DNA of 64,000 nucleotides, from NCBI GenBank assembly GCA_041874725.1, contig CP097466.1, forward strand, positions 5,828,001-5,892,000, read 5' to 3'. The DNA is from Duganella sp. BuS-21. Its GTDB lineage: Bacteria; Pseudomonadota; Gammaproteobacteria; Burkholderiales; Burkholderiaceae_D. Position 1 is the first letter of the stretch. Each line of letters begins with the position of its first letter. This document shows, piece by piece, positions 1,770-16,711 of the stretch. The notes below the pieces were generated by a model, which worked only from the letters and a program-made list of their open reading frames with translations, was not told the origin of the DNA and did not search any database. The translations under genes and the position numbers were made by a program.

Positions 1770-3713
1770 ATGAACGCCCCAGACACCTCCGCCCGCACGC
1801 CCCGCCCTATCCAGGCCCTGCCCGACCAGCTGATTTCCCAGATCGCCGCCGGCGAGGTGGTGGAGCGGCCGTCGGCCGTGGTCAAGGAACTGCTGGAGAA
1901 CTCGCTCGACGCGGGGGCCACGCAGATCAGCGTGCGGCTGGAGGAAGGCGGCGTTAAACGCATCTGCATCACCGACAACGGCCGTGGCATTCCGCCAGAG
2001 CAGATGCCGTTGGCACTGGCGCGTCACGCCACCTCGAAAATCACTTCGTTGCACGACCTGGAAAACGTCGGCACGCTGGGCTTCCGCGGCGAGGCGCTGG
2101 CTTCGATCGCCTCGGTGGCGGTGCTGACGCTGACCTCGCGCACCGCCGATGCGGCACACGCCTGGGAAATCGTCGGCTCGCACAATGCCGCGCCGGCGCC
2201 GTCTTCCGGCGCGGTGGGCACCACCATCGACGTCCAGGACCTGTACTTCAATACGCCTGCGCGCCGCAAGTTCCTCAAATCCGAGCAGACCGAATTCGGC
2301 CACTGCGCCGAAGTCGTGCGCCGCATCGCGCTGGCGCGGCCGGACGTGTCGTTCTCGCTGACGCACAACGGCCGCACCATCGATCACTGGAACGTGAGCG
2401 AGATGGCCAAGCGCAGCGCGCACATCCTGGGCGAAGGCTTCGCCGAAGCGCGCTTGCCGATCGATGAAACGGCCGGTCCCTTGCGCCTGCATGGTTACAC
2501 CGGCCTGCCGACTGCCTCCAAGGCGCGCGCCGATGGGCAGTTCTTCTACGTGAACGGCCGCTTCGTGCGCGACAAGGTGCTGGTGCACGCCGTGAAGGCG
2601 GCCTACCAGGACGTGCTGCACGGCGACCGCTTCCCATCGTATGTGCTGGCGCTGGAGCTGGACCCGGCGCTGGTGGACGTCAACGTTCATCCGTCCAAGA
2701 TTGAAGTGCGCTTCCGCGATAGCCGCGCGGTGCACCAGTTTGTATTCCACGCGGTGCAGCGGGCGTTGTCGCAGACTTCGGCCACCGCGCACGGCAGCGT
2801 GCCGTCGCCGCTGCCGGCGGCCGATAGCCTGAACGCCACGCCGGCCTGGCGCGGCGAGCAAGCCTCGTTCGGCTCCCTGCTGGCGCCGGACTACACGCCG
2901 ACCTTCTCGCCGTCGCCGTTCGGATCGCGCGCGGATGGCGGCGCCGGCTACGGCGGCCCGCGCTTCGGCGCCGACGGCGGCGTGGCGCAGAGCACCGAAA
3001 AATACGGCGCCATGTTCCGCGACGGCGAGCGTGCCGGCGGCGAACGCGCGGCGGCCGACATGGCGCTGCCGCAAACGAGCAGCTTCAGCGTCTCGGCCGC
3101 CGCCATGGCGCAGGAGGAATTCCCGCTCGGCTTCGCACTGGCGCAGCTGCACGGCATCTACATCCTGGCGCAGAACGTCAAGGGCCTGGTGCTGGTCGAC
3201 ATGCACGCCGCGCACGAGCGCATCCTGTACGAACAACTGAAAAACGCCCTGGACAGCCGCGTCGCCGGCGAAGACATGCAGGTGCAGCCGCTGCTGATTC
3301 CCGTCACCTTCTATGCCGACGCGGTGGAAGTGGGCACCGCCGAAGAACACCAGGAGACCTTGCAGGCGCTGGGCTTCGACATCGCCGTGCTGTCGCCGAC
3401 CACGCTGGCGGTGCGCTCGGTGCCGGTGCTGCTGAAGAACGCCGACGCCCAGACGCTGGCGCGCGACGTGTTGCGCGACGTGCGTGAATTCGGCGGCTCG
3501 CGCGTGCTGATCGAACGCCAGAACGAACTGCTCGGCACCCTGGCCTGCCACACGGCGGTGCGGGCCAACCGCATCCTGTCGCTGCAGGAGATGAACGCGC
3601 TGCTGCGGCAGATGGAAATCACCGAACGCGCCGACCAGTGCAACCACGGCCGCCCTACCTGGGTGCAGGTGGAAATCAACGCGCTCGACAAGCTGTTCCT
3701 GCGCGGTCAATAA
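1770..3713 (+). CDS. mutL: DNA mismatch repair protein MutL (endonuclease type)
   Basis: The 647-residue protein has the N-terminal GHKL ATPase motifs [12 protein letters not shown] (about residues 39-50), DNGRGI, RHATSK and GFRGEAL. A poorly conserved linker (about 355-470) leads to the C-terminal dimerisation domain. That domain contains [12 protein letters not shown], which fits the metal-binding DQHA(x)2E(x)4E signature of nicking MutL proteins, plus ACHTAVR and CNHGRP. I therefore infer an intrinsic endonuclease, as expected in bacteria that do not use MutH. The start at 1770 is preferred because the 1710 start adds 20 unrelated residues. miaA begins one base after the stop, which points to an operon. 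Confidence 0.97.
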
Positions 3714-3714
3714 G

Positions 3715-4662
3715 ATGAGCACCAAACCACTGGCCGTCGCCATCATGGGTCCGACGGCGTCGGGCAAGACCGCCTCCGCGCTGGCGATTGCGGAACGCAT
3801 TCCGGCCGAAATCATCTCCGTCGATTCGGCGCTGGTGTATCGCGGCATGGACATCGGCACCGCCAAGCCGACGCGCGAAGAATTGGCGGCCGCGCCGCAC
3901 CACCTGATCGACATCCTCGACCCGCTCGATTCCTATTCGGTAGCGCAGTTTCGCAAGGACACGCTGCGGCTGGTGGACGAGATCAGCGCGCGCGGCAAAT
4001 TGCCGCTGCTGGTGGGCGGCACCATGTTGTACTTCAAAGGCCTGGCCGATGGCCTGGACGACCTGCCCGGCGCCGATCCCGAGGTACGCGCCGCGCTCGA
4101 TGAAGAAGCGGCCCGTCTCGGCTGGCCCGCCATGCACGCGCGCCTGGCCGCCATCGATCCTGAAACGGCGGCGCGACTGGCGCCGGCCGACTCGCAACGC
4201 ATCCAGCGCGCGCTGGAGATTTACACGCTGAGCGGCAAGCCCATGTCCGAGCTGCTATCGCTGCGCGAAAAGACCGAGTTGCCGTTCGAGCTGCTGTCGT
4301 TTGCGCTGGAGCCGTCGGACCGCGCCGTGCTGCACAAGCGCATCGCGCGCCGCTTCGACATCATGCTGGAGGAGACGCCGCAAGGTAACCTGATCACCGA
4401 AGTGGAGACGCTGCGCCGGCGCGGCGATTTGCATCTGGGCCTGCCGTCGATCCGCTGCGTGGGCTATCGTCAGGCATGGGAATATCTCGATGGCACCATC
4501 GACTATGCGACCATGCGCGAGACCGGCATCATCGCCACGCGCCAGTTGGCCAAGCGCCAGCTGACATGGCTGCGCTCCATGCCCGAGCGCGTGGTGCTCG
4601 ACTGCCTCGGTTCCAATCCGGCCGGCGCCATGCTGGCGCAGATCGCCGAACGGCTCGGCTGA
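3715..4662 (+). CDS. miaA: tRNA dimethylallyltransferase MiaA
   Basis: MiaA transfers a dimethylallyl group to N6 of A37 in tRNAs that read UNN codons. The 315-residue protein opens with the P-loop GPTASGKT (residues 11-18), followed by [24 protein letters not shown] and [10 protein letters not shown], all characteristic of the family. The C-terminal [16 protein letters not shown] segment is also typical. It starts one base after mutL, an arrangement common in proteobacteria. It ends 14 bp before the convergent VOC gene. Length and motifs are complete. Confidence 0.97.
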
Positions 4663-4676
4663 TCCGGCTTAATGCT

Positions 4677-5081
4677 TTAATGCTTGGGCGGCTCGCCGCT
4701 CATATGCACCAGCTCCCACAGATGGCCGTCCAGATCCTGGTAGCCGTGGCCGTACATGAAGCCGTGGTCCTGCGGCTCCTTGTAGGTGCTGCCGCCGGCC
4801 TCAACGGCCTTGTTCACCATCGTCGTCACGGCGTCGCGCGACTCCAGTTGCAGGCATACCAGCACCTCGGTGGAGGTGCGCGCGTCGCTGATCGGTTTAG
4901 GCGTAAATTCCTTGAAGCGGCTTTCGACCAGCAGCATCACGAAAATATTCTCGGCCACGATCATGCAGGTGGCGCTGTCGTCGGTGTAGTGCTGATTGAA
5001 ACTGTAGCCCAGGTGCGTGAAGAACTTGACCGACTGCTGCAAGTCGCGCACGGGCAGGTTGATGAAGATATTGGTGGCCAT
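4677..5081 (-). CDS. VOC superfamily (glyoxalase-fold) protein
   Basis: This 134-residue protein has the paired beta-alpha-beta-beta-beta pattern of the vicinal oxygen chelate fold: NIFINLPVRDLQQSVKFFTHLGY at the N-terminus and GFMYGHGYQDLDGHLWELVHM at the C-terminus, the latter holding a candidate metal-ligand Glu. Members include glyoxalases, dioxygenases and antibiotic-binding proteins, and the sequence does not tell which. It is a lone gene convergent with miaA. It lies immediately upstream of, and divergent from, the tRNA-Met promoter. Family assignment is firm and substrate unknown. Confidence 0.85.
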   Translation of the reverse strand: MATNIFINLPVRDLQQSVKFFTHLGYSFNQHYTDDSATCMIVAENIFVMLLVESRFKEFTPKPISDARTSTEVLVCLQLESRDAVTTMVNKAVEAGGSTYKEPQDHGFMYGHGYQDLDGHLWELVHMSGEPPKH

Positions 5082-5196
5082 GGCATCCCCGTTAAAGAAA
5101 TTATCACAAGCGAGGAATCAGAATACCAATATGCCAACGTTTTGACGACCACCACGCGATACGGGGCACTTTTTTCGAAAAAGTTCAGGGTCGGCC

Positions 5197-5225
5197 TTGA
5201 CAGTCGGAGCGCCAACCCCGATAAT
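5197..5225 (+). promoter_or_regulatory. Sigma-70 promoter of the tRNA-Met gene
   Basis: A perfect -35 TTGACA (5197-5202) and a -10 GATAAT (5220-5225) are separated by 17 bp. They end 13 bp before the mature tRNA start, as expected for a strong stable-RNA promoter. Confidence 0.85.
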
Positions 5226-5238
5226 GCTTCGCGTTGCA

Positions 5239-5315
5239 GGTGATATAGCTCAGTTGGTTAGAGCACAGCATTCATAATGCTGGGGTCGGTGGTTCAAGTC
5301 CACCTATCACCACCA
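5239..5315 (+). tRNA. tRNA-Met (CAU), elongator type
   Basis: The 77-nt cloverleaf is complete. The acceptor GGTGATA pairs with TATCACC, the D arm starts GCTC, the anticodon stem-loop CAGCATTCATAATGCTG contains CAT, the T loop is TTCAAGT, and CCA is encoded. G1-C72 pairing and the overall sequence favour elongator Met over initiator. A tRNA-Ile2 with a modified CAU anticodon is less likely but cannot be fully excluded. The 3' part is the insertion target of the island that follows. Confidence 0.95.
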
Positions 5316-5330
5316 AAGAATACCTGTAGA

Positions 5331-5364
5331 AGCCCCTAAGAAATCAACCGCTTAGGGGCTTTTT
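5331..5364 (+). terminator. Rho-independent terminator downstream of tRNA-Met
   Basis: A 10-bp perfect stem, AGCCCCTAAG (5331-5340) with CTTAGGGGCT (5351-5360), encloses a 10-nt loop and is followed by TTTT. It lies inside the island, so it was probably brought in by the element and replaced the original terminator now found at 10480-10517. Confidence 0.85.
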
Positions 5365-5751
5365 GCATTTCTGGCGACGTCGCATGCCGGTCAACTCACT
5401 GGTTGGGTTTTGACTCTACAGTTGAGACAGAGTTGAGCGGAACTTCCGCACAACAACGATTATCTTACAAAACTGGCTAAATTTGGCGCTGAAGGCGGTG
5501 CCGAAATACTAACGCAAGGTCAAGTTGCCCATCGAGATGAAGCGCGCCGAGCCGACCACGTAGCTGATCGACGAGGTATTGAAAGCGATAAGCATTAAAG
5601 CGCAGTCGAGTGGAGCGAGAAGGCGCGCGAGCATATGCGCGGTTCTCGAATAGGCAGGGAGTGTGCATCGGCAGCGCATGGGCCGAAGTTCTGCATGTGG
5701 ACCCGCATGGGCATGAAATCGGCATAGCGATCCCCATCGTTCCGCCCGAGA
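5365..5751. other. Gene-free left end of the island
   Basis: These 387 bp follow the tRNA terminator and end at the stop of the coiled-coil gene. I see only short reading frames with no recognisable similarity. The one feature is a 17-nt motif at 5422-5438 (TTGAGACAGAGTTGAGC) that recurs near the right end. This is where an integrase would normally lie, and none survives. Confidence 0.5.
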
Positions 5752-6753
5752 TCAAAGAGGTAAGGCTGCTCGTCCCATGGCCGTCCAGATGAAAAGCGCG
5801 ACGATAGCGACGCCTGCCAATGCGTGGACGATCCGATGCGCGCGCATGTCTTTGCGCTGCTTCTCGAGCTCCTGAGAAAGCAGCGCCTCGTGCGCGGCCA
5901 TCGATTCGAGCTTCTTGTCGAGTTCTTGGCGGTGAGCTTCCGCTGCCGCGATCTTGTCGTGCACGGAGGCGTCGCTCGCGGCGAGCCGCTCTTCCACGCG
6001 CTTCTCGACCGCCATGTGAACATCATCGAATTGAGCGAGCCGGGTGGCCACGATCTTCGACCAATCGCTCGCGATGAGCCGCAGCCGCTCCTCGACCTCG
6101 CCCATGAGCCGCCCATGGGATTCAAGCATGTTCTTCTCTGAATCGGCCACCTTTTGAGCGCATTTCATCAGCTCGACCGCTTGGGTCTGCGTCAGACTTT
6201 TGGCCTCTTTCAATGCCTCGACCACTCCAGTGAACTCGCGTAGAGTGTTCGCGTGAAGTTCCTGGTGTTCTTGGAGCTGGCCGTTCTGATCTTTGATGTC
6301 GCGGGCCTGGTGATTCAGCGCGACCTGTTGTTCTTGCAGCGCTCCTTGCTGGCCATTCATGATCTTGGCCATGGCGGTGTTGAGGATCAACAGATTGGAC
6401 GAGAGTGCGCCTAGCTTGCGGAACTCGCCGTTCAAGTTGGATTCGACGTCCTCGATTTGGTCGTCTCGGTCATTCCACATGTTCGAGAGGAAATTGCCGT
6501 CTTTTTTCTCTTCGCGAAGTCGCGCCAACTTTTTCTCGGAGGATTCCAGTTTAAGTTGCGACGCCCGCATGTCATTAACCAATTTTGGAACGTTGCTGTT
6601 CCTTAAAACATCCTCTGGCAACACGAGGCTCGAAAATGCTTCGACGACATGCATTTCGCTCAGCGCGATGTCTGTTTTGACATGCTCGACGGATTCGTCG
6701 GCGTTGGCGGAAGCCGGCGTGGAGGGGGCGGACTGGGCGGATAATGTTTGCAT
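5752..6753 (-). CDS. Tail-anchored coiled-coil protein of unknown function
   Basis: I do not recognise this 333-residue protein. It has a low-complexity Ser/Ala-rich start (residues 1-20) and a charged segment LKLESSEKKLARLREEKKD (67-85). A long heptad-rich Glu/Gln/Lys region runs roughly over 135-305 and should form a coiled coil. One hydrophobic helix follows at about 308-326 (HIV-like in position only, reading HALAGVAIVALFIWTAMG), leaving six residues after it. The bulk should therefore face the cytoplasm, anchored by its C-terminus. It is the second gene of a minus-strand pair, 54 bp after the membrane protein gene ending at 6808. I infer that they work together. No clear Shine-Dalgarno precedes 6753. 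Reality of the gene is well supported by length and non-shadow composition. Confidence 0.75.
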   Translation of the reverse strand: MQTLSAQSAPSTPASANADESVEHVKTDIALSEMHVVEAFSSLVLPEDVLRNSNVPKLVNDMRASQLKLESSEKKLARLREEKKDGNFLSNMWNDRDDQIEDVESNLNGEFRKLGALSSNLLILNTAMAKIMNGQQGALQEQQVALNHQARDIKDQNGQLQEHQELHANTLREFTGVVEALKEAKSLTQTQAVELMKCAQKVADSEKNMLESHGRLMGEVEERLRLIASDWSKIVATRLAQFDDVHMAVEKRVEERLAASDASVHDKIAAAEAHRQELDKKLESMAAHEALLSQELEKQRKDMRAHRIVHALAGVAIVALFIWTAMGRAALPL

Positions 6754-6807
6754 TGGTGATCGATTTTTTGCAGCGTTTTATGGATGTTAGCGACCCGGTG
6801 GGGCGAA

Positions 6808-8382
6808 TCACATGCCCTTCAAGAATCGTTCGATTTCGAGCTGCGAGGACTCGATGTAAGCCACCGCAGCCGTCGTGCTTTCGATTTGGAGCTCCAACTC
6901 CGAGTTGCTCGCTTCCAAGCTCAGCAGCATGAGATTGCCGTCGTTGCTCGCGGAGCCGAAGGAGGCTCCGATGTCCTTGCATAGCTCGATGGATGTCACG
7001 TAGTTTTTGATGTTCGCGAGCGAGACGCCAAGCTGCTCCTCCATAGCGGTGGCGAACGCTTCCATGCGCTGCGAGTCCTCGATCAACTCGTCGAGGCGGC
7101 GCTCGTCGCCGGCATTGGAGAGCGCGTCGAACAGCCGGTCGATCTGATAGACCACCACGGCCGATAGCAGGCCGACCATTATCCCCACCAGCACTGGCGC
7201 GACGACGTCGGCCAAGGGCTTTAGAAACGGCATCGAGGCCATGAAAGTAATCGCGCTCTGTTCGATCATGACGCCCAAGGAAGTGATGATGACAGTAGTC
7301 AAGATCTTCAAGCCTTGCTGGGCCGCATCGCTGCGAGTCATGTGCTTGGGAGGAAACGCAATCAGCTTGAACGCCTTGAAGAGCCCCAGCAGTCCATCGC
7401 GGATCACCCGAACCAGTTTCTCGCCCGTGCTGACGAAGGAGTTGATCACGAAGGTAAGGAGGTTGCTCATGAAACCGCTGGCGCCGCCTTCGAAGAGCGC
7501 GCTGAATGCGTCTGGCAGTTTCTTAGCCACGGAGCGCGTCACCCTTCCAAGCCGCTCTCCGATGTCCGCCAACACGTTCTCCGCGAGCGCGAAGCCTTCC
7601 TTCATCATGATTTTGAATTCATTGAACAGCCCGTTGACCAACTCGGTCAGCAGGATGCCCAGAGACTGTCTCAGGCCCATGGCCAGGGCTTGCTTTCCGC
7701 CGGTTTGAAGGAGTTCGCCACCCTGCTTTTTGAATAAGGCGGAGTTTGTCTCGCCGTCGAATTTCTCTTTGGATTCGGCGTGCTTTTTGGCCACGGCCTC
7801 GGGGTCGATCGCGAAGCGCTCGGCGTTACTTTTCTCAGCATCCGCAGTCGATGCCTTCTCGCTCCATTTTTTTGCGTCATGATCCTTCTTGGAGCGATTG
7901 ATCGATATGTCCGTGATGGCCAAATTCACGTCGTCGTTGACAAGGACCTTGATCTTCTCGACCGATACCTTGCCGTCTTTGACTTCCCCGAGGGCGAGAT
8001 GCATCTTGGCGTTGGTTGCCGCCTCTTTGATCGGGGTGAAATGGTCTAGCTCTGGCTTGACTGAAAGCGCTTCGTTGGTATATTCATCGACGCCACGCGC
8101 GATGCGTTCTTCACGCTTCGCCTTCCACTCGGTTTGGGTCAGCTCATACTTGCTCCGGTCATATGCTTCTGTAAGCGAGTCGTGTAGAGCTTTGTCACTA
8201 TCGGTGGCGACGATGCCTTTCTCGAAATTCTGGACCGTGGTGACATTGCCGCCGGCCTTGTCGGTGAACATGGCCGGCGATAGTCCGAAGGGGCCGATGA
8301 TCTGGGAGAAGACGTGCTGTTGGCATTCCTCGAACAAGGCGTCGAGCCGTTGCTGTTTGAGCTGCATGTTGGACTGGGCCAT
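6808..8382 (-). CDS. Unknown membrane protein with HNH-like nuclease signature
   Basis: The 524-residue protein is not from a family I can name. Residues 111-167 read like an HNH-type pattern: LDHFTPIKE with Asp113-His114, then DVNLAITDISINRSKKD with Asn153, Asn162 and Lys165. In HNH enzymes a DH pair is followed about 40 residues later by an NL...N..K element. A charged helical region (about 165-225) leads to amphipathic helices (230-345). Two strongly hydrophobic helices lie near 358-380 and 391-412, and a soluble C-terminal region covers 415-524. The start at 8382 is preferred over 8484 because AAGGGAAG sits just upstream and the extra 34 residues look unlike protein. It is first in an operon with the coiled-coil gene. 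A membrane-tethered nuclease effector is an inference only. Confidence 0.75.
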   Translation of the reverse strand: MAQSNMQLKQQRLDALFEECQQHVFSQIIGPFGLSPAMFTDKAGGNVTTVQNFEKGIVATDSDKALHDSLTEAYDRSKYELTQTEWKAKREERIARGVDEYTNEALSVKPELDHFTPIKEAATNAKMHLALGEVKDGKVSVEKIKVLVNDDVNLAITDISINRSKKDHDAKKWSEKASTADAEKSNAERFAIDPEAVAKKHAESKEKFDGETNSALFKKQGGELLQTGGKQALAMGLRQSLGILLTELVNGLFNEFKIMMKEGFALAENVLADIGERLGRVTRSVAKKLPDAFSALFEGGASGFMSNLLTFVINSFVSTGEKLVRVIRDGLLGLFKAFKLIAFPPKHMTRSDAAQQGLKILTTVIITSLGVMIEQSAITFMASMPFLKPLADVVAPVLVGIMVGLLSAVVVYQIDRLFDALSNAGDERRLDELIEDSQRMEAFATAMEEQLGVSLANIKNYVTSIELCKDIGASFGSASNDGNLMLLSLEASNSELELQIESTTAAVAYIESSQLEIERFLKGM

Positions 8383-8933
8383 GTCTTCCCTTAGGTTTGT
8401 GCGAATCACAATCGGCGCTCTGAAAAATCGAGACACGATTTGCCGAGCGGAGAAGATGATTTTAACCCAGTAATTTTGCCCCATGAAAATATCTATTCGC
8501 CAAGAATCCTTAAGTCCGTGAATTTTTCATGCCGCACTAATTAGGTCTTCTGGCAATCAGAGGGAAGCGGTCGTTGAACTCATCTCAAATGGACAAGCTG
8601 GCGGACAAAGGTGCGAAGGTGCGCAGGGCATGTATTGATAGTGTCGATGGCGATGTCGCATTGGTCTTTGTTGACGGCCACGATGACGCGTGCCGCCCGC
8701 CGGGTGGTGCGAGGTATCGGTTTTCTCATATACAGGGCGTGGTGGTGGGTTCTGACGCCCTTCCGGGGCATGTTCGCGGTTCACGGTTTCTACCATTCGA
8801 ATAGGGCAGAAATTGCCGCGCGTCTGTTGCGCGTTATCCCTGCGTTATTTTGTAATAATATTGTTTAAAATCAATTACTTACAAAATATTTCAGCTTTAA
8901 GAGAAATCGCGGTTGTATTGTCGGCAATTGGGC
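8383..8933. other. Non-coding or decayed stretch between the operon and parA remnant
   Basis: The 551 bp include the operon's upstream region (8383-8500). A GC-rich middle follows, with several overlapping short frames of 60-85 codons that I cannot assign. A markedly AT-rich segment lies at about 8845-8920. The missing middle and end of parA would be expected here but are not recognisable in any frame. Confidence 0.4.
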
Positions 8934-9113
8934 TCAGTTTAGGCCGTTCTTCTGCGGACTTTGTAGATATTGTCGTGCACCTTCCCCCCACCAAGAACGC
9001 ATAGGAGCTAGGAGCGCGCGATAGCCCATCAGGGCGTAGCATGCGGCGAGTGCAATGGCGAGCGTGGTCTTCCCGACTCCACCCTTTTGATTTAATAGCC
9101 CGATAACGGTCAT
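8934..9113 (-). pseudogene. Truncated ParA-type ATPase
   Basis: Only 59 codons remain. They begin MTVIGLLNQKGGVGKTTLA, the ParA deviant Walker A motif (residues 10-17), after a good Shine-Dalgarno (AAGGGA, about 8 nt upstream). Family members are about 200-250 residues. Similarity ends near YRALL at about residue 31, where DxDPQ should follow, and the frame then runs through unrelated sequence to a TGA. The Walker A' and Walker B segments are missing, so it is most likely a deletion relic of a plasmid- or island-maintenance partition gene. Confidence 0.8.
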
Positions 9114-9254
9114 ATGGATTCCCTTATTTACGGATTGGAGGCAATACGGTTTGCCGACAATAGGATTATAGGAAGAATCGTTTTTACGCTTTCCCCAAGG
9201 AAACGTTGGCAAGTTGCCCCGCCATGACGACAGTCCGAAGGGAATGCGCTACAC

Positions 9255-9266
9255 TGTTCATGAACA
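9255..9266. promoter_or_regulatory. Palindrome upstream of the toxin-antitoxin pair
   Basis: TGTTCATGAACA is a perfect 12-nt palindrome 18 bp before the antitoxin start. This is the place where antitoxin or toxin-antitoxin complexes usually bind to autoregulate. The regulatory role is inferred. Confidence 0.45.
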
Positions 9267-9284
9267 ACCACATGGGAGGCCGAC

Positions 9285-9482
9285 ATGGCTACTCTGAAGA
9301 AAATCGGCGAGCACCCAGACTTGGCCGCCACCCCTGAACCACCGCCGCTCACCCCGCTGGAGGCGAAACGCCGCCGGCTCGCTGCCGCTCTGAAAGCGGC
9401 CGAAGGACTGTGGAAAGACCGCACCGACATGCCGAAGGACGGCGTTCAATATCAGGAGCAACTGCGGTCTGAATGGCATTGA
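9285..9482 (+). CDS. Putative antitoxin of PIN-type module
   Basis: This 65-residue protein (MATLKKIGEHPDL...) is proline-rich near the start, with a basic helix EAKRRRLAAALKAAEGLWKDR in the middle and an acidic/aromatic C-terminus. I see no AbrB, ribbon-helix-helix or HTH motif that would name the family. Antitoxin is inferred from size, position and a 10-bp overlap with the downstream PIN toxin, the usual order in VapBC operons. GGGAGG seven bases upstream supports the start. A small palindrome at 9255-9266 may be its operator. Confidence 0.7.
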   Translation: MATLKKIGEHPDLAATPEPPPLTPLEAKRRRLAAALKAAEGLWKDRTDMPKDGVQYQEQLRSEWH

Positions 9483-9958
9483 TTCTGTTCGACACCAACA
9501 TCTTCATCGACATGCTCAACGGCGTCCACCAGGCGTCGGTCGAGCTGGCCAGCTACGACGCGGCTGCCATCAGCTACATCACCTATATGGAACTTCGCGT
9601 CGGTGAGATCGCCCGTCCGCACGAAAAGCCGATTCTGGACGCCTTGCTGGATGAGTTCCTGATCGTCGATATGAACAAGACGATCATGGAGGCGGCCATT
9701 AAGATTCGGGGCGGCAGCCTCATCACCCGCCCCGCCATCAAGCTCCCCGACGCCATCATTGCGGCGACCGCCTGGGCGCGCGGCTACCCTATCGTCACAC
9801 GCAACGCAAAAGACTTCGTGGCGGCAGGCGTCACAGTTCACGTCCCCTACGACTACGACTCCACGACGGGGCTAGTAACGAACGTCCGCGCGCCGTTCGA
9901 ACCTACGTCCAAAGCTGTCTCAAAGGGTGGCCGTCCAACGCTGACCCGGTTGCGGTAA
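9473..9958 (+). CDS. PIN-domain toxin (VapC-like ribonuclease)
   Basis: The 161-residue protein shows the acidic PIN active-site set: Asp7 in LFDTNIFIDML, Glu40 in YMELRVGE, Asp93 in LPDAIIAATA, and Asp114 in TRNAKDF. VapC toxins cleave tRNA or rRNA in a Mg2+-dependent way and are held by the co-encoded antitoxin. The overlap with the preceding gene supports translational coupling. The C-terminal 25 residues (ending GRPTLTRLR) extend past the usual PIN length of about 130 residues, for reasons unknown. All catalytic residues are present, so it is likely active. Confidence 0.88.
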   Translation: MALILFDTNIFIDMLNGVHQASVELASYDAAAISYITYMELRVGEIARPHEKPILDALLDEFLIVDMNKTIMEAAIKIRGGSLITRPAIKLPDAIIAATAWARGYPIVTRNAKDFVAAGVTVHVPYDYDSTTGLVTNVRAPFEPTSKAVSKGGRPTLTRLR

Positions 9959-10062
9959 TCCTGTCAGGTGCTTCGCGGCGCGCCGGCGGCAGCCGGCAAG
10001 TCGATCGCACAAGGCTCACGAAAAGAATTTGCGCGATGTAAGGACAGGTCGACAGTAGTCCT

Positions 10063-10114
10063 GGGGAATTGGGGAATGGGGCGCCTGGGCCTAGGGAATG
10101 GGGCTTGGGGAATT
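10063..10114. repeat. GGGGAAT short-repeat cluster upstream of IS256 remnant
   Basis: Copies of (G/A)GGGAAT occur at 10063, 10071, 10093 and 10107 within 52 bp. They lie just before the transposase remnant and may be part of its left end, but no defined terminal inverted repeat could be confirmed. Confidence 0.5.
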
Positions 10115-10157
10115 TGATCCTCAGAATTGCCCGATTGTCCGCCATCAAGGAGAAACG

Positions 10158-10268
10158 ATGACCGTTGTAAAGCGTAACAAGCGGGCAAGGCCCGATCCAG
10201 AACTGCTGAAATTGGCCGACAGCCTGCTGGCCAACTACCAGAAGCCCGAGCGATGCACGCGGACGTGA
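10158..10268 (+). pseudogene. N-terminal remnant of an IS256-family transposase
   Basis: The 36-codon frame starts with a strong ribosome site (AGGAG at 10148-10152). The segment DPELLKLADSLLANYQKPE (residues 13-31) matches the N-terminus typical of IS256-family transposases, which continue with DLxGExGL. The match stops after codon 31 (10250), and five unrelated codons lead to a TGA. Full transposases are about 400 residues, so the catalytic DDE core is gone. Recognition rests on a short but characteristic segment. Confidence 0.7.
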
Positions 10269-10325
10269 AACTTCCCATTTCGTTCTGTAATGTTTGCCAC
10301 TGGTTCACCCTCTATTTCATGTAAC

Positions 10326-10342
10326 TTGAGATAGAGTTGAGC
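10326..10342 (+). repeat. 17-nt motif near the right end of the island (pair with 5422-5438)
   Basis: TTGAGATAGAGTTGAGC matches 5422-5438 at 16 of 17 bases, in the same orientation. The two copies lie 62 bp inside the right repeat and 106 bp inside the left one. Both sit in a small inverted context (CTCT...AGAG) and follow ACTGGTT at a similar distance. They may be recombinase accessory sites. Confidence 0.55.
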
Positions 10343-10403
10343 CGGCATGCAGCCTGATTGCCCTGTCCTTTCTAAGCCCTTGATCCTAAAAAGAAAATCA
10401 AAC

Positions 10404-10472
10404 GCTCAGTTGGTTAGAGCACAGCATTCATAATGCTGGGGTCGGTGGTTGAAGTCCACCTATCACCACCAA
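10404..10472 (+). repeat. Right attachment site: partial tRNA-Met direct repeat
   Basis: It matches 5248-5316 except for C to G at 10451, which corresponds to the invariant C56 of the T loop (5295). The 5' acceptor strand is absent (sequence before it is AAATCAAAC), so this copy cannot be a functional tRNA. Confidence 0.9.
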
Positions 10473-10479
10473 GATTCCG

Positions 10480-10517
10480 AAAGCCGTCATTCACGAAAGT
10501 GGGTTACGGCTTTTTTG
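10480..10517 (+). terminator. Probable original tRNA-Met terminator, displaced by the island
   Basis: The stem AAGCCGT/ACGGCTT with an extended CAC-GAAA-GTG apex is followed by a run of six T. It lies 8 bp after the displaced tRNA 3' end, where the tRNA's own terminator should be. Confidence 0.8.
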
Positions 10518-10606
10518 TTTATGGTCGCGCCGCGTCGGCACCACAGGGTATGCTGAAGTCGACGTGATAGTGCTCGTCCTGACGTATCCAAGGGCGCTGC
10601 TTCAGC

Positions 10607-11344
10607 TTACACGATACCGCCGTTGACGCGGATGGTCTGGCCGTTGATCCAGGCGCCGTCCGGGCCGGCCAGCATGGCGACGGCGGCGGCGATGTCGTCC
10701 GGCTGGCCCAGGCGCTCCAGCGGCGCCAGCTTGGCCAGGCGGTCGACCAGGTCCTGCGGTTTGCCATCGAGGAACAAAGCCGTGGCGGTCGGGCCGGGCG
10801 CGATGTCGTTGACGGTGATGTTGCGGCCGCGCAGTTCCTTGGCCAGCACGCGCGTCATCGCCTCCACGCCGGCCTTGGTGGCCGCGTACACTCCGTATCC
10901 CGGCTGGCACATGCCCACCACGCTCGACGACAGGTTGATGATGCGGCCGCCGCTGCGCAGCCTGCGCGAGGCTTCGCGCAAGGTGTTGAACGTGCCTTTG
11001 AGATTGATCGCGATCTGGCTGTCGAACAGGGCGTCGTCGCTGTCGGCCAGCGTGGCCAGCTTCATGATGCCGGCGTTGTTGACCAGGACGTCGATGCCGC
11101 CGTAGGCCGCCTCCGCCGCGTCGAACATGCGCGCCACCGCCGCCGGGTCGCTGACGTCGGCTTGCGCCGCGATCGCCATGCCGCCGCTGTGTTCGATCTG
11201 CTGAACCAACTCCTCGGCCGCCGCCGCGCTGCCGGCGTAGTTGACCACGACGGTGAAGCCGTCGCCGGCCAGACGCCGCGCAATGGCAGCGCCGATGCCG
11301 CGCGATGCTCCGGTGACGATGGCTACTTTGTTTGCTGCGTTCAT
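10607..11344 (-). CDS. SDR family oxidoreductase
   Basis: This 245-residue classical short-chain dehydrogenase has the cofactor motif TGASRGIG (residues 10-17), NNAG (about 89-92), an active-site Ser in NLSSS, and YAATK (YxxxK, about 152-156). The C-terminus ends GQTIRVNGGIV, as in 3-oxoacyl-ACP-reductase-like members. The residue after the second strand (NYAGSA) suggests NADPH preference, though that is an inference. It is divergent from a LysR regulator over a 101-bp gap, which suggests that the regulator controls it. Substrate unknown. Confidence 0.9.
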   Translation of the reverse strand: MNAANKVAIVTGASRGIGAAIARRLAGDGFTVVVNYAGSAAAAEELVQQIEHSGGMAIAAQADVSDPAAVARMFDAAEAAYGGIDVLVNNAGIMKLATLADSDDALFDSQIAINLKGTFNTLREASRRLRSGGRIINLSSSVVGMCQPGYGVYAATKAGVEAMTRVLAKELRGRNITVNDIAPGPTATALFLDGKPQDLVDRLAKLAPLERLGQPDDIAAAVAMLAGPDGAWINGQTIRVNGGIV

Positions 11345-11445
11345 GCTGTCTCTCCTGGTAGGTGGTATGAATCTACTATGCCAGCTCCCGAGCCAAAGAT
11401 AATCAGCGTAATATTGACCTCACTATTCCAAAATCATAAACAATT

Positions 11446-12354
11446 ATGGACAGACTGGATGCCATGCGCCTGTTCACGCGGATTGTCGAGCGCAGCAGTT
11501 TTACCCAGGCGGCGATCGACACCGGCGTGCCGCGCTCGACCGTGACGCAGGTGATCAATCAGCTGGAACAGCGCCTGAACGTGCGGCTGCTGCAACGCAC
11601 CACCCGCAGCGTCAAGCCCACGCTCGACGGCGAAGCTTATTACCGCCGCTGCCTCAGCATCCTCGACGATGTGGAGGACGCCGAAGGCGCGTTCGCCGGC
11701 GCCGAGCCGAAGGGCATGCTAAGGGTGGAGGTGCAAGGCACACTGGCGCGGCATTTCCTGCTGCCCGCGCTGCCGGCCTTCTTCGAGCGCTACCCGGAGG
11801 TAGAGCTGTCGATGAGCGAAAGCGACCGCTGGGTCGATCTGGTTCAGGAGGGCATGGATTGCGCGCTGCGCTACGGCAAATTGCCGGACAGCGAACTGAT
11901 CGCGCGGCAAGTGGCGATGCTTGACCGCGTGACCTGCGCCACGCCCGGCTACCTCGAACGCTACGGCACGCCGCGCGATCTGGCGTCGCTGCGCGGTCAC
12001 CGCGTGGTCGACATCCGCACCATCACCACCGGCCATGTCACGCCGCTGGAATTCACCGGCGGCGCGGCGCTGGAAAGCGTGCAACTGCCGGCCACCTTCT
12101 CGGTCACCGGCCCGGAAAGCTATATCGCCGGCACGCGCCTGGGACTGGGGATCGCGCAAATGCCGCGCTTCCACGTGGAGAACGATTTAAAACAAGGCAC
12201 GCTGGTGACGCTGCTCGACCATCTGCCGCCGCCCTCGGTGCCGGTGTCGCTGGTGTATCCGCGCAACCGTCAGCTATCGCCGCGCGTGCGTGCCTTCCTG
12301 GCTTGGGCGACGCAGGAATTCGCCCGCCGCAATTCACCGGCCCGGGAGTCATAG
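11446..12354 (+). CDS. LysR family transcriptional regulator
   Basis: The 302-residue protein has the N-terminal winged HTH (MDRLDAMRLFTRIVERSSFTQAAIDTGVPRSTVTQVINQLEQ) and a LysR substrate-binding domain from about residue 90. The pattern LLQRTTRSVKPTLDGEAYYRR is typical of the CrgA/YafC-like group of betaproteobacterial LysR proteins. Divergent placement next to the SDR gene suggests control of that gene, with both promoters and the operator in 11345-11445. The inducer is unknown. Confidence 0.92.
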   Translation: MDRLDAMRLFTRIVERSSFTQAAIDTGVPRSTVTQVINQLEQRLNVRLLQRTTRSVKPTLDGEAYYRRCLSILDDVEDAEGAFAGAEPKGMLRVEVQGTLARHFLLPALPAFFERYPEVELSMSESDRWVDLVQEGMDCALRYGKLPDSELIARQVAMLDRVTCATPGYLERYGTPRDLASLRGHRVVDIRTITTGHVTPLEFTGGAALESVQLPATFSVTGPESYIAGTRLGLGIAQMPRFHVENDLKQGTLVTLLDHLPPPSVPVSLVYPRNRQLSPRVRAFLAWATQEFARRNSPARES

Positions 12355-12372
12355 CCCGCCGGCAGCGCGCCC

Positions 12373-15381
<3,009 letters not shown>

Positions 15382-15422
15382 TGCCAGGGCCGTGGTTAAG
15401 AAGTTGCCACATTGTATATGGC

Positions 15423-15746
15423 AAATGGAAGGACAAGCTGGCGGCCGGCTTCACCAATTCCGCCTCGCGCTCCGGCGACAAGCTGGCGACACTGCAGCAA
15501 CTGTTCATCTTCGCGGCGCAGCACGGCATGCACTGGGTGAACCTGGGTCTGCCGCCTGGCAACAACTCCAGCACCGGCAGCGAGGAGGACTTGAACCGGC
15601 TGGGCTTCTTCATCGGCGCGGCGGCGCAATCGAATGCGGACCAGAGCGCCGAGCTCGCGCCTTCGGCATCGGATCTGAAAACCGCCGAGCATCTGGGCGC
15701 GCGCGTCGCCAAGACCGCCTTGCAGTTCGTGCGCGGACGCGCGTAA
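15423..15746 (+). pseudogene. C-terminal remnant of WrbA-like NAD(P)H:quinone oxidoreductase
   Basis: From KWKDKLAAGFTNS onward the 107 codons match the C-terminal half of flavodoxin-like FMN reductases. Recognisable parts are the SGDKLATLQQLFIFAAQHGMHWV segment, LPPGNNSS, and ASDLKTAEHLGARVA. The N-terminal half with the FMN phosphate loop and the FGSPTR-type segment is absent. Upstream sequence (15382-15422) belongs to the kinase promoter region and holds no matching start. The frame runs to a proper stop followed by a good terminator, which is consistent with deletion of the 5' half of a formerly intact gene. Confidence 0.75.
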
Positions 15747-15750
15747 CGCA

Positions 15751-15778
15751 ACGGGGCCGCATCAGCGGCCCTGTTTTT
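15751..15778 (+). terminator. Rho-independent terminator of the quinone-reductase remnant
   Basis: A 10-bp stem (15751-15760 with 15765-15774, one G-T pair) with an ATCA loop is followed by TTTT. It also lies just beyond the 3' end of the convergent hydrolase gene. Confidence 0.85.
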
Positions 15779-15799
15779 CCTGCACGTTTCAGCTACGCC

Positions 15800-16711
15800 T
15801 TATTTGAGGAACTGCACCAGCTTCGGCACCACTTCGCTGGTCGCCTCTTCCATCAGCCAATGGCCCTTGCCCTTGATGATCACACCTTCCACCTGCGAGT
15901 CCACCAGCCTGGCCTGATCGATCAGCACGTTGCCGGAGGCCTTCTCGCCGGTCAGCACCAGCATCGGGATGGTCAGCGGCGTCTTGGCGTAGGCAGCGAA
16001 TTCGGCGGCATCTTTTTCAAACGCGCGGAACACTTCGAAGCCGGCGCGCATATGGTCGGGCTGGGCGTATTCGCGCGTGTAGAACTTGCGGTCGGCTTCA
16101 CTCAGCGACTTGGTCTTGTCGGCCGAGAAGTCGTTCCAGAAGTGTTCGAAGTAAGTGCGCTCGCGGCCCTTGACCAGCGCCAGCGGCGTTTCGCCGTAGA
16201 AGTGGAAGTGCCACAGGTCGCGCAGCAGCCAGACATCCTTCCAGTTGCCGACGCCGGGCAGGAAGGCATCCAGCAAGACGATCTTGTTGACCTCGGACGG
16301 GTACTGGGCGGCATAGGCATAGGCCACCATCAGGCCGATGTCGTGGCCGACCACTTTGGCCGACTTGATGCCCAGGCTGACGGCCAGCGCATGCACGTCC
16401 TGCGCCATCACCGACTTGGTGTAGGGACCGGCCGGCGTGGCCGACTGGCCGAAGCCGCGCAGGTCGGGCGCAATCACCAGGTGGTCCTTGGACAGCTCGG
16501 CGATCAGCGGCAACCACATGTGGCTGGACTGCGTGTAACCATGCAGCAAAATGATGGGATCGCCCTTGCCGGCCGACAGATAGTGCAGGCGCACGCCGTT
16601 GACCTCGGCGAAGTTGCTCTTCGGCGCCTGGGCCTGGGCCTGCCCCACGGCCAGCATGGACAGCGTCAACAGAAAGGCGCCCAGTAGCGGCCTGATGAGT
16701 GAGAATTTCAT
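15800..16711 (-). CDS. Secreted alpha/beta hydrolase, epoxide-hydrolase-like
   Basis: The 303-residue protein has a signal peptide (cleaved near AQA, residue 28) and an alpha/beta hydrolase fold. The oxyanion motif is HGYT (57-60). The nucleophile elbow is GHDIG with Asp124 instead of the esterase Ser, and the catalytic His is in KGHWLMEE. The Asp nucleophile and DLRGFGQS segment place it with epoxide hydrolases and haloacetate dehalogenases. The exported location is less usual for these enzymes. It is divergent from the response regulator at 16838 over 126 bp. Substrate unknown. Confidence 0.85.
   Translation of the reverse strand: MKFSLIRPLLGAFLLTLSMLAVGQAQAQAPKSNFAEVNGVRLHYLSAGKGDPIILLHGYTQSSHMWLPLIAELSKDHLVIAPDLRGFGQSATPAGPYTKSVMAQDVHALAVSLGIKSAKVVGHDIGLMVAYAYAAQYPSEVNKIVLLDAFLPGVGNWKDVWLLRDLWHFHFYGETPLALVKGRERTYFEHFWNDFSADKTKSLSEADRKFYTREYAQPDHMRAGFEVFRAFEKDAAEFAAYAKTPLTIPMLVLTGEKASGNVLIDQARLVDSQVEGVIIKGKGHWLMEEATSEVVPKLVQFLK

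Follow-up and report, generated by a model that had tools for sequence, protein, structure and literature searches.

We propose, with moderate confidence, that two adjacent genes of Duganella sp. BuS-21 encode an effector and its sensor, acting together against phages at the inner membrane, where the effector, an HNH protein, would cut entering phage DNA locally. The genes lie in the 64,000-nucleotide stretch of contig CP097466.1 (positions 5,828,001 to 5,892,000) analyzed here, hereafter the window, to which all coordinates refer. An earlier note, made from the sequence alone, had described them as consecutive minus-strand genes separated by 54 bp, and its coordinates, strands and gap (6754 to 6807) were correct. 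It had also called the pair undescribed and assignable to no known system, which no longer holds: gene 1 matched the PDC-M40B profile PDLC04630 of PADLOC-DB 2.0 over residues 1 to 522 (E 8.4e-200), and gene 2 matched the PDC-M40C profile PDLC04634 (E 2.2e-57), both belonging to the existing, uncharacterized PADLOC candidate PDC-M40. The features of the pair are as follows.

6808 to 8382, minus strand: gene 1 (PDC-M40B-like), predicted membrane HNH effector of 524 aa (open reading frame [ORF]; PADLOC PDLC04630)
8224 to 8295, minus strand: N-terminal signature of gene 1, GPFGL..AMF.DK.GGNVTT..N, residues 30 to 53 (conservation in 28 sequences)
7849 to 8109, minus strand: putative HNH domain core of gene 1, residues 92 to 178, with D113, H114, N153, N162 and K165 (residue conservation)
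7126 to 7305, minus strand: predicted membrane hairpin of gene 1, residues 360 to 419 (Kyte-Doolittle peaks 1.64 at 360 to 378 and 2.73 at 393 to 411)
6814 to 7101, minus strand: C-terminal helical tail of gene 1, residues 428 to 523, proposed docking module for coiled-coil partners (structure model and tail length)
5752 to 6753, minus strand: gene 2 (PDC-M40C-like), predicted tail-anchored coiled-coil partner of 333 aa (ORF; PADLOC PDLC04634)
5755 to 5841, minus strand: predicted C-terminal membrane helix of gene 2, residues 305 to 333 (Kyte-Doolittle peak 2.22)

An alternative in-frame ATG at 8484 would add 34 residues to gene 1, but the start at 8382 was preferred because P0004 and other close homologues of 524 aa start at the equivalent position and a Shine-Dalgarno-like stretch, AAGGGAAG, was read from the sequence immediately 5' of it. 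The D113-H114 pair and the NL...N..K motif at 153 to 165 (N153, L154, N162, K165), which the earlier note had likened to an HNH nuclease core, were both present. They were strongly conserved in an alignment of 28 sequences, the window's included, from Proteobacteria, Clostridia and one jumbo phage: H114, N153 and N162 were kept in all 28, D113 in 27 and K165 in 26. Residues 33, 41, 44, 45, 47, 49 and 52 of the N-terminal signature were each kept in 25 to 27 of these sequences, a conservation only slightly below that of the HNH core; the sequences had been taken between stop codons and cut back to the first methionine, so that their N termini are rough. The pattern DH-x(25-60)-N[LIVM]-x(5-10)-N..K arose in 43 of 20,000 shuffles of the gene 1 protein; with a first gap of 15 to 60 residues it was found in 143 of the 145 listed homologues. 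The HNH region was modelled as a strand (110 to 114), a second strand (154 to 158) and a helix (159 to 165), which did not contradict the beta-beta-metal fold named in the earlier note. Among the 50 VIA-align structural alignments listed, the only ones confined to model residues 82 to 212 were to Cas9 HNH domains, and these were weak.

Profile searches over the HNH region gave weak matches to HEC-05 and GmrSD_C, and in one relative to the C-terminal part of SspE. GmrSD_C scored 16.2 bits on gene 1, below the Pfam curated cut-off of 23, and matched 9 of 61 homologues at E ≤ 0.05 (best 4.2e-4); since families without an evident link also matched one to three of these 61 members each at the same threshold, matches in two members, such as that of Cas9b, are not evidence alone. 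GmrSD_C, HEC-05 and the Cas9 HNH domain share the DH, N, N..K layout with gene 1, whereas gene 1 carries a membrane hairpin and the Pfam scan found in it neither a GmrSD N-terminal domain nor RuvC. Judged by its conserved residues, gene 1 is probably an HNH nuclease, which would cleave DNA. Identities as a cobalamin adenosyltransferase, an AI-2E transporter or a peptidyl-tRNA hydrolase were rejected for this family; they derive from annotation names or weak Pfam matches, and the sequences are better accounted for by the HNH signature together with a PADLOC match over the full length. Sequence searches of the PDB returned nothing useful.

The two membrane helices that the earlier note had placed at residues 358 to 380 and 391 to 412 of gene 1 were recovered as hydropathy segments at about 360 to 383 and 385 to 419, in a half of the structure model that is of low confidence. 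The loop between them is short, which suggests that both ends of the protein face the cytoplasm. Upstream of the hairpin, a segment at about 295 to 345 was strongly conserved, and downstream of it the tail was modelled with block pLDDT values of 73 to 90 over residues 451 to 524 and 46 to 67 over 421 to 450. Gene 2 was likewise as first described, mostly coiled coil (modelled as one long helix at 90 to 259 and another at 265 to 330) with a single C-terminal membrane helix in the hydropathy profile. A match of gene 2 to SMC (E 1.7e-4; 19.5 bits, where the cut-off is 567) was set aside as coiled-coil similarity.

The combination of a membrane tether, an HNH core and a separate coiled-coil partner led us to propose a nuclease posted where phage DNA enters the cell. 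Gene 1 would be the effector, its HNH domain on the cytoplasmic side and held to the membrane by the helical hairpin, while gene 2 would be a tail-anchored coiled coil docking on the effector's C-terminal helical tail and acting as sensor or localizer. The trigger could be injection of phage DNA, or entry machinery disturbing the membrane, upon which gene 2 might bring or release the HNH domain to cut the DNA where it crosses the membrane. Self and non-self would be told apart by place and not by sequence. Such a mechanism would be a variant of membrane-localized nuclease defence, for which SNIPE, described in a 2026 paper (PMC13190303) as a nuclease bound to the membrane and cleaving phage DNA while it is being injected, offers a precedent. 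Both systems have a membrane-held nuclease, but SNIPE combines DUF4041 and GIY-YIG with an N-terminal anchor, whereas gene 1 has an HNH core, a hairpin at 360 to 419 and a separate coiled-coil gene; the Pfam scan matched neither DUF4041 nor GIY-YIG at E ≤ 1.

The two genes are linked. Loci and genomes are given below with L and G numbers. Strong gene 1 matches were found in 3 of the 294 genomes of the family (G000, G123 and G279), and strong gene 2 matches in the identical three. Weak matches (E 1e-4 to 1e-3) were excluded from strong counts throughout, which in the family search removed two of five genomes for gene 1 and four of seven for gene 2, and for gene 1 in wider samples two of seven genomes (phylum) and two of five (other class); five of the six excluded gene 1 matches fall in the C-terminal part. 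Over eight loci, the distances of gene 1 correlated with those of gene 2 (Mantel r 0.938, a value reached in 0 of 10,000 permutations), which is what joint inheritance would produce. Gene 2 nevertheless diverges faster than gene 1, being 64% identical to its counterpart in L040 (gene 1, 90%), 47% in L002 (78%) and 28% in L039 and L003 (46 to 47%). Faster change in the partner than in the conserved effector is in keeping with an adaptor or phage-facing part, in contact with components of the phage or the host. The distribution was sporadic: strong gene 1 matches numbered 5 among the 398 genomes sampled from the phylum and 3 among the 369 sampled from the other class, a gene 1 match was held by 70 of 72,556 plasmid records, and one version was present at the DNA level in 2 of 5,426 E. 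coli genomes. Pattern scanning added two relatives among viral contigs and one among genome contigs.

The earlier note had placed the pair in a tRNA-embedded island, and this was borne out, a direct repeat of 69 nt from the 3' part of tRNA-Met bracketing 5.1 kb.

5239 to 5315, plus strand: tRNA-Met(CAT), integration target (ARAGORN; Rfam RF00005)
5248 to 5316, plus strand: left attachment repeat, 69 nt, 3' part of tRNA-Met
10404 to 10472, plus strand: right attachment repeat, tRNA 3' remnant, 68/69 identical to the left (Rfam)
9473 to 9958, plus strand: putative PIN-domain (VapC-like) toxin gene inside the island (PF01850, E 1.9e-9)

The GC content of the island was 0.555, compared to 0.648 outside it. 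Sequence resembling its right flank abuts the tRNA in 2 of the 19 same-genus loci compared (L048 and L049; 132 bases, 71% identity), the layout of an empty site, and a third same-genus locus matched the right-flank sequence over 48 bases. No integrase-like ORF was noticed in the ORF list between the repeats, for which no profile scan was made, and an Rfam scan returned nothing beyond the tRNA and its remnant.

The defence setting suggested by the earlier note was seen only in part. Of the eight loci with an M40C-type partner, two have Shedu or Gabija close by and a third has a neighbour that partially matches a further PADLOC candidate, so that the link to defence is clear at two loci. The closest paired relative (L040) has Shedu SduA (E 3.5e-161) some 0.5 kb past the pair and, after it, genes for an Abi_C protein and an OLD-like ATPase; Vsr and a cytosine methyltransferase are encoded on the opposite side. 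On a viral contig (L028) the genes after the pair encode a NOV_C protein, then Gabija GajB (4.4e-179) and a portion of GajA (9.8e-122). Defence-profile scans covered the neighbours in L040 and L028 and part of those in L041, L039, L002 and L004; at E ≤ 0.001 they matched none of four neighbours in L041, none of three in L002 and not the one in L004. By annotation alone, the neighbours in L003 are toxin-antitoxin and plasmid genes. At L039, where genome G123 carries M40A, M40B and M40C together, a 750-aa neighbour (2606 to 4858) partly matched PDC-S33 (E 9.1e-18).

We compared 30 loci, selected for variety and not randomly: 17 plasmid regions, 1 phage region, 8 genome regions, 2 viral contigs, a Massilia locus and the window. 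In 28 of the 30, a partner of membrane or coiled-coil type adjoined the gene or, in L036, lay one gene away, so that the single occurrence in housekeeping contexts that would have spoken against the earlier note was not borne out; the loci without a partner were a decayed copy (L009) and L046. The partner was M40C in 8 loci, a second tail-anchored coiled-coil type in 2 (L007 and L042), PDC-M09A-like in 11, 10 of these with a YkgJ-type gene, and JukA or Gly-zipper in 7 (L005, L006, L010, L011, L029, L037 and L044), the link of L005 to this class being weak (E 2.2e-5). Partner profiles were built partly from neighbours in these same loci, and such matches arise by construction. The tail, counted from D415 to the end, measured 89 to 117 aa in all 21 coiled-coil-partner loci compared and 40 to 59 aa in all 6 JukA/Gly-zipper loci, a match compatible with a physical fit of tail and partner. 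In a tree of the 28 aligned sequences, which like the alignment omits the decayed L009 and L029, cut by a contig end, the M40C loci formed one group (97/93) and the M09A loci another (100/100), while the JukA/Gly-zipper loci were not a single group. The pattern of partner types on the tree needs four changes, the minimum possible, which indicates that partner type is inherited with the effector.

At the core of this wider family stands the HNH protein, combined with any of four types of partner, of which one is JukA-like, and what seems to be new is a single HNH effector family spanning several partner types, its tail following the partner. We tentatively suggest a large, unnamed family of membrane HNH effectors, gene 1 among its members, that would cleave DNA as it enters and be combined with one sensor or another (the M40C coiled coil, a PDC-M09A-like protein with YkgJ, JukA/Gly-zipper, or the second tail-anchored coiled-coil type), the tail deciding the sensor. 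If so, several separately listed candidates and part of Juk would be one mechanism, an HNH counterpart of SNIPE, with one conserved effector working with several kinds of sensor in Proteobacteria, Clostridia and jumbo phages alike. The copy that Aeromonas jumbo phages carry might then serve to exclude rivals. Scattered unnamed candidates would become one testable family, with the prediction that the effector tail fixes the sensor.

Besides SNIPE and the HNH domains of GmrSD_C, HEC-05 and Cas9, the known systems closest to the pair are PDC-M40 itself, Juk and Zorya. As in the Klebsiella plasmid locus L003, the window pair stands in the order B then C, but it differs from PDC-M40 in that the third component, the SUKH-family PDC-M40A, is not in the window genome. 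SUKH proteins are immunity proteins against nuclease toxins. The PDC-M40A profile matched the SUKH-family gene before PDC-M40B in L003 (E 3.4e-76), and a profile made from that gene found a relative at the equivalent place in G123 (L039). It found none among the ORFs of window positions 4501 to 16000, and PDC-M40A itself, the one SUKH family searched, had no match across the whole window genome at E ≤ 0.001, one control genome giving a match. M40A is present in two of the seven M40C-type loci with a visible upstream side (L003 and L039), a count that leaves out L028, whose region begins at gene 1. A decayed PDC-M40A-B locus was also seen, in short pieces, in L009 (P. aeruginosa plasmid pF022). 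The string PDC-M40 was not found in the main texts of open-licence PubMed Central articles, a scope that covers few subscription journals and excludes supplements, and neither the jukA passages of PMC12571901 nor the HNH and membrane passages in the main text of the DefensePredictor paper (PMC13092281) name such a pair.

Passages of a review describe Juk as a sensor with varied effectors that recruits them to the infection site, and JukB as forming pores on the early infection vesicle (PMC13282480). A gene 1 relative sits directly after JukA (PADLOC E 2.4e-58) in L006, where JukB stands in Juk, whereas the partner in the window is a coiled-coil protein and not JukA. This adjacency was read in one plasmid; two other records, with a gene 1 copy 98 to 100% identical, represent the same lineage. 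Of 299 genomes searched, four matched the JukA profile PDLC04111, and in none of these did a gene 1 relative lie within about 1.5 kb. Gene 2 had no PADLOC match to JukA, and PDLC04111, one of three JukA profiles seen, had no match in the window genome, with a control matched in E. coli. JukB was absent from the gene 1 matches when all PADLOC profiles were scanned at E ≤ 1; a genome search with PDLC04114 also gave no JukB match, but carries no weight as no positive control matched. Zorya is similar in having a membrane sensor complex and a nuclease, and passages of a review group it with Kiwa and SNIPE as using membrane position (PMC12904381). None of its components was among the PADLOC matches of either protein at E ≤ 1, and weak ZorA matches of the partners in L007 and L029 look like coiled-coil similarity. 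Assignment to JukB, Zorya or SNIPE was rejected, as the Pfam and PADLOC scans found none of their components.

The proposed anti-phage mechanism is favoured by the conserved HNH residues with their structural and profile matches, the linkage of the two genes, the sporadic, low-GC, tRNA-bracketed island, the Shedu and Gabija neighbours, the JukA-adjacent relative and the fast-diverging partner. Two of the observations can be read otherwise: the rapid divergence of gene 2 may merely reflect looser constraint on a coiled coil, and as tail length also tracks clades, shared descent alone could yield the match of tail and partner. A somewhat unlikely alternative is abortive infection, in which the pair would sense infection at the membrane and the HNH domain would then degrade host DNA, killing or stalling the infected cell. 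The SUKH-type PDC-M40A just upstream in some relatives is consistent with a nuclease that may endanger its own cell, but its absence from the window genome and its presence in only two of seven M40C-type loci indicate that an immunity protein is not generally needed, and a membrane tether would suit a local target better than the nucleoid.

We consider it improbable that conjugated or transformed DNA, rather than phage DNA, is what the pair cuts on entry. The many relatives on plasmids and in Aeromonas jumbo phages (seven records) would suit such competition between elements, but the neighbours in L040 and L028 are anti-phage systems. Strong conservation at about 295 to 345, together with the place that a gene 1 relative takes beside JukA in L006, could instead point to a JukB-like effector, whose conserved membrane region would disrupt phage vesicles or membranes with the HNH domain secondary; we judge this quite improbable, given the lack of any JukB match to gene 1 and the invariance of H114, N153 and N162. 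Least of all do we expect a housekeeping or cell-envelope pair without a defence role, which would be in keeping with the lack of known defence genes near L002 (three neighbours scanned) and L007 (annotation only), but not with a nuclease core, carriage on mobile islands and plasmids, and occurrence in only 3 of 294 family and 5 of 398 phylum genomes.

The PDC-M09A-like gene, the HNH membrane protein and the YkgJ-type cysteine-cluster gene form a recurring block (L030 to L036, L038, L043 and L045), found on plasmids of Klebsiella, E. coli, Vibrio, Acetobacter, Allochromatium, Cupriavidus, Duffyella and C. difficile and in two genomes, with a WYL regulator in several loci and TerB in L035. The jumbo phage relatives of the HNH membrane protein were in seven records of Aeromonas phages (D3, D6, D9 and LAh10). 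In LAh10, the only viral structure match with E < 0.001, the relative is annotated as cobalamin adenosyltransferase and follows a PDC-M09A-like partner (L008, 4949 to 7545; E 3.3e-16), as if it were the phage's own exclusion system. The HNH membrane protein relative of L011 (Photobacterium damselae plasmid p1) has a gene annotated as csm6 some 3.7 kb upstream.

Within the window island, the toxin module that the earlier note saw beside the pair is the PIN-domain gene, a putative toxin gene of the same island for which no link to the pair was seen. A promoter scan gave about the shuffled expectation (3 against 1.8, standard deviation 1.3). A short ORF at 9285 to 9482, read from the sequence, overlaps the start of the PIN gene and looks like an antitoxin. 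Positions 8937 to 9212 hold the truncated start of a ParA-like ATPase (PF13614, E 9.6e-9), which suggests that a larger element was once present and left the island as its remnant.

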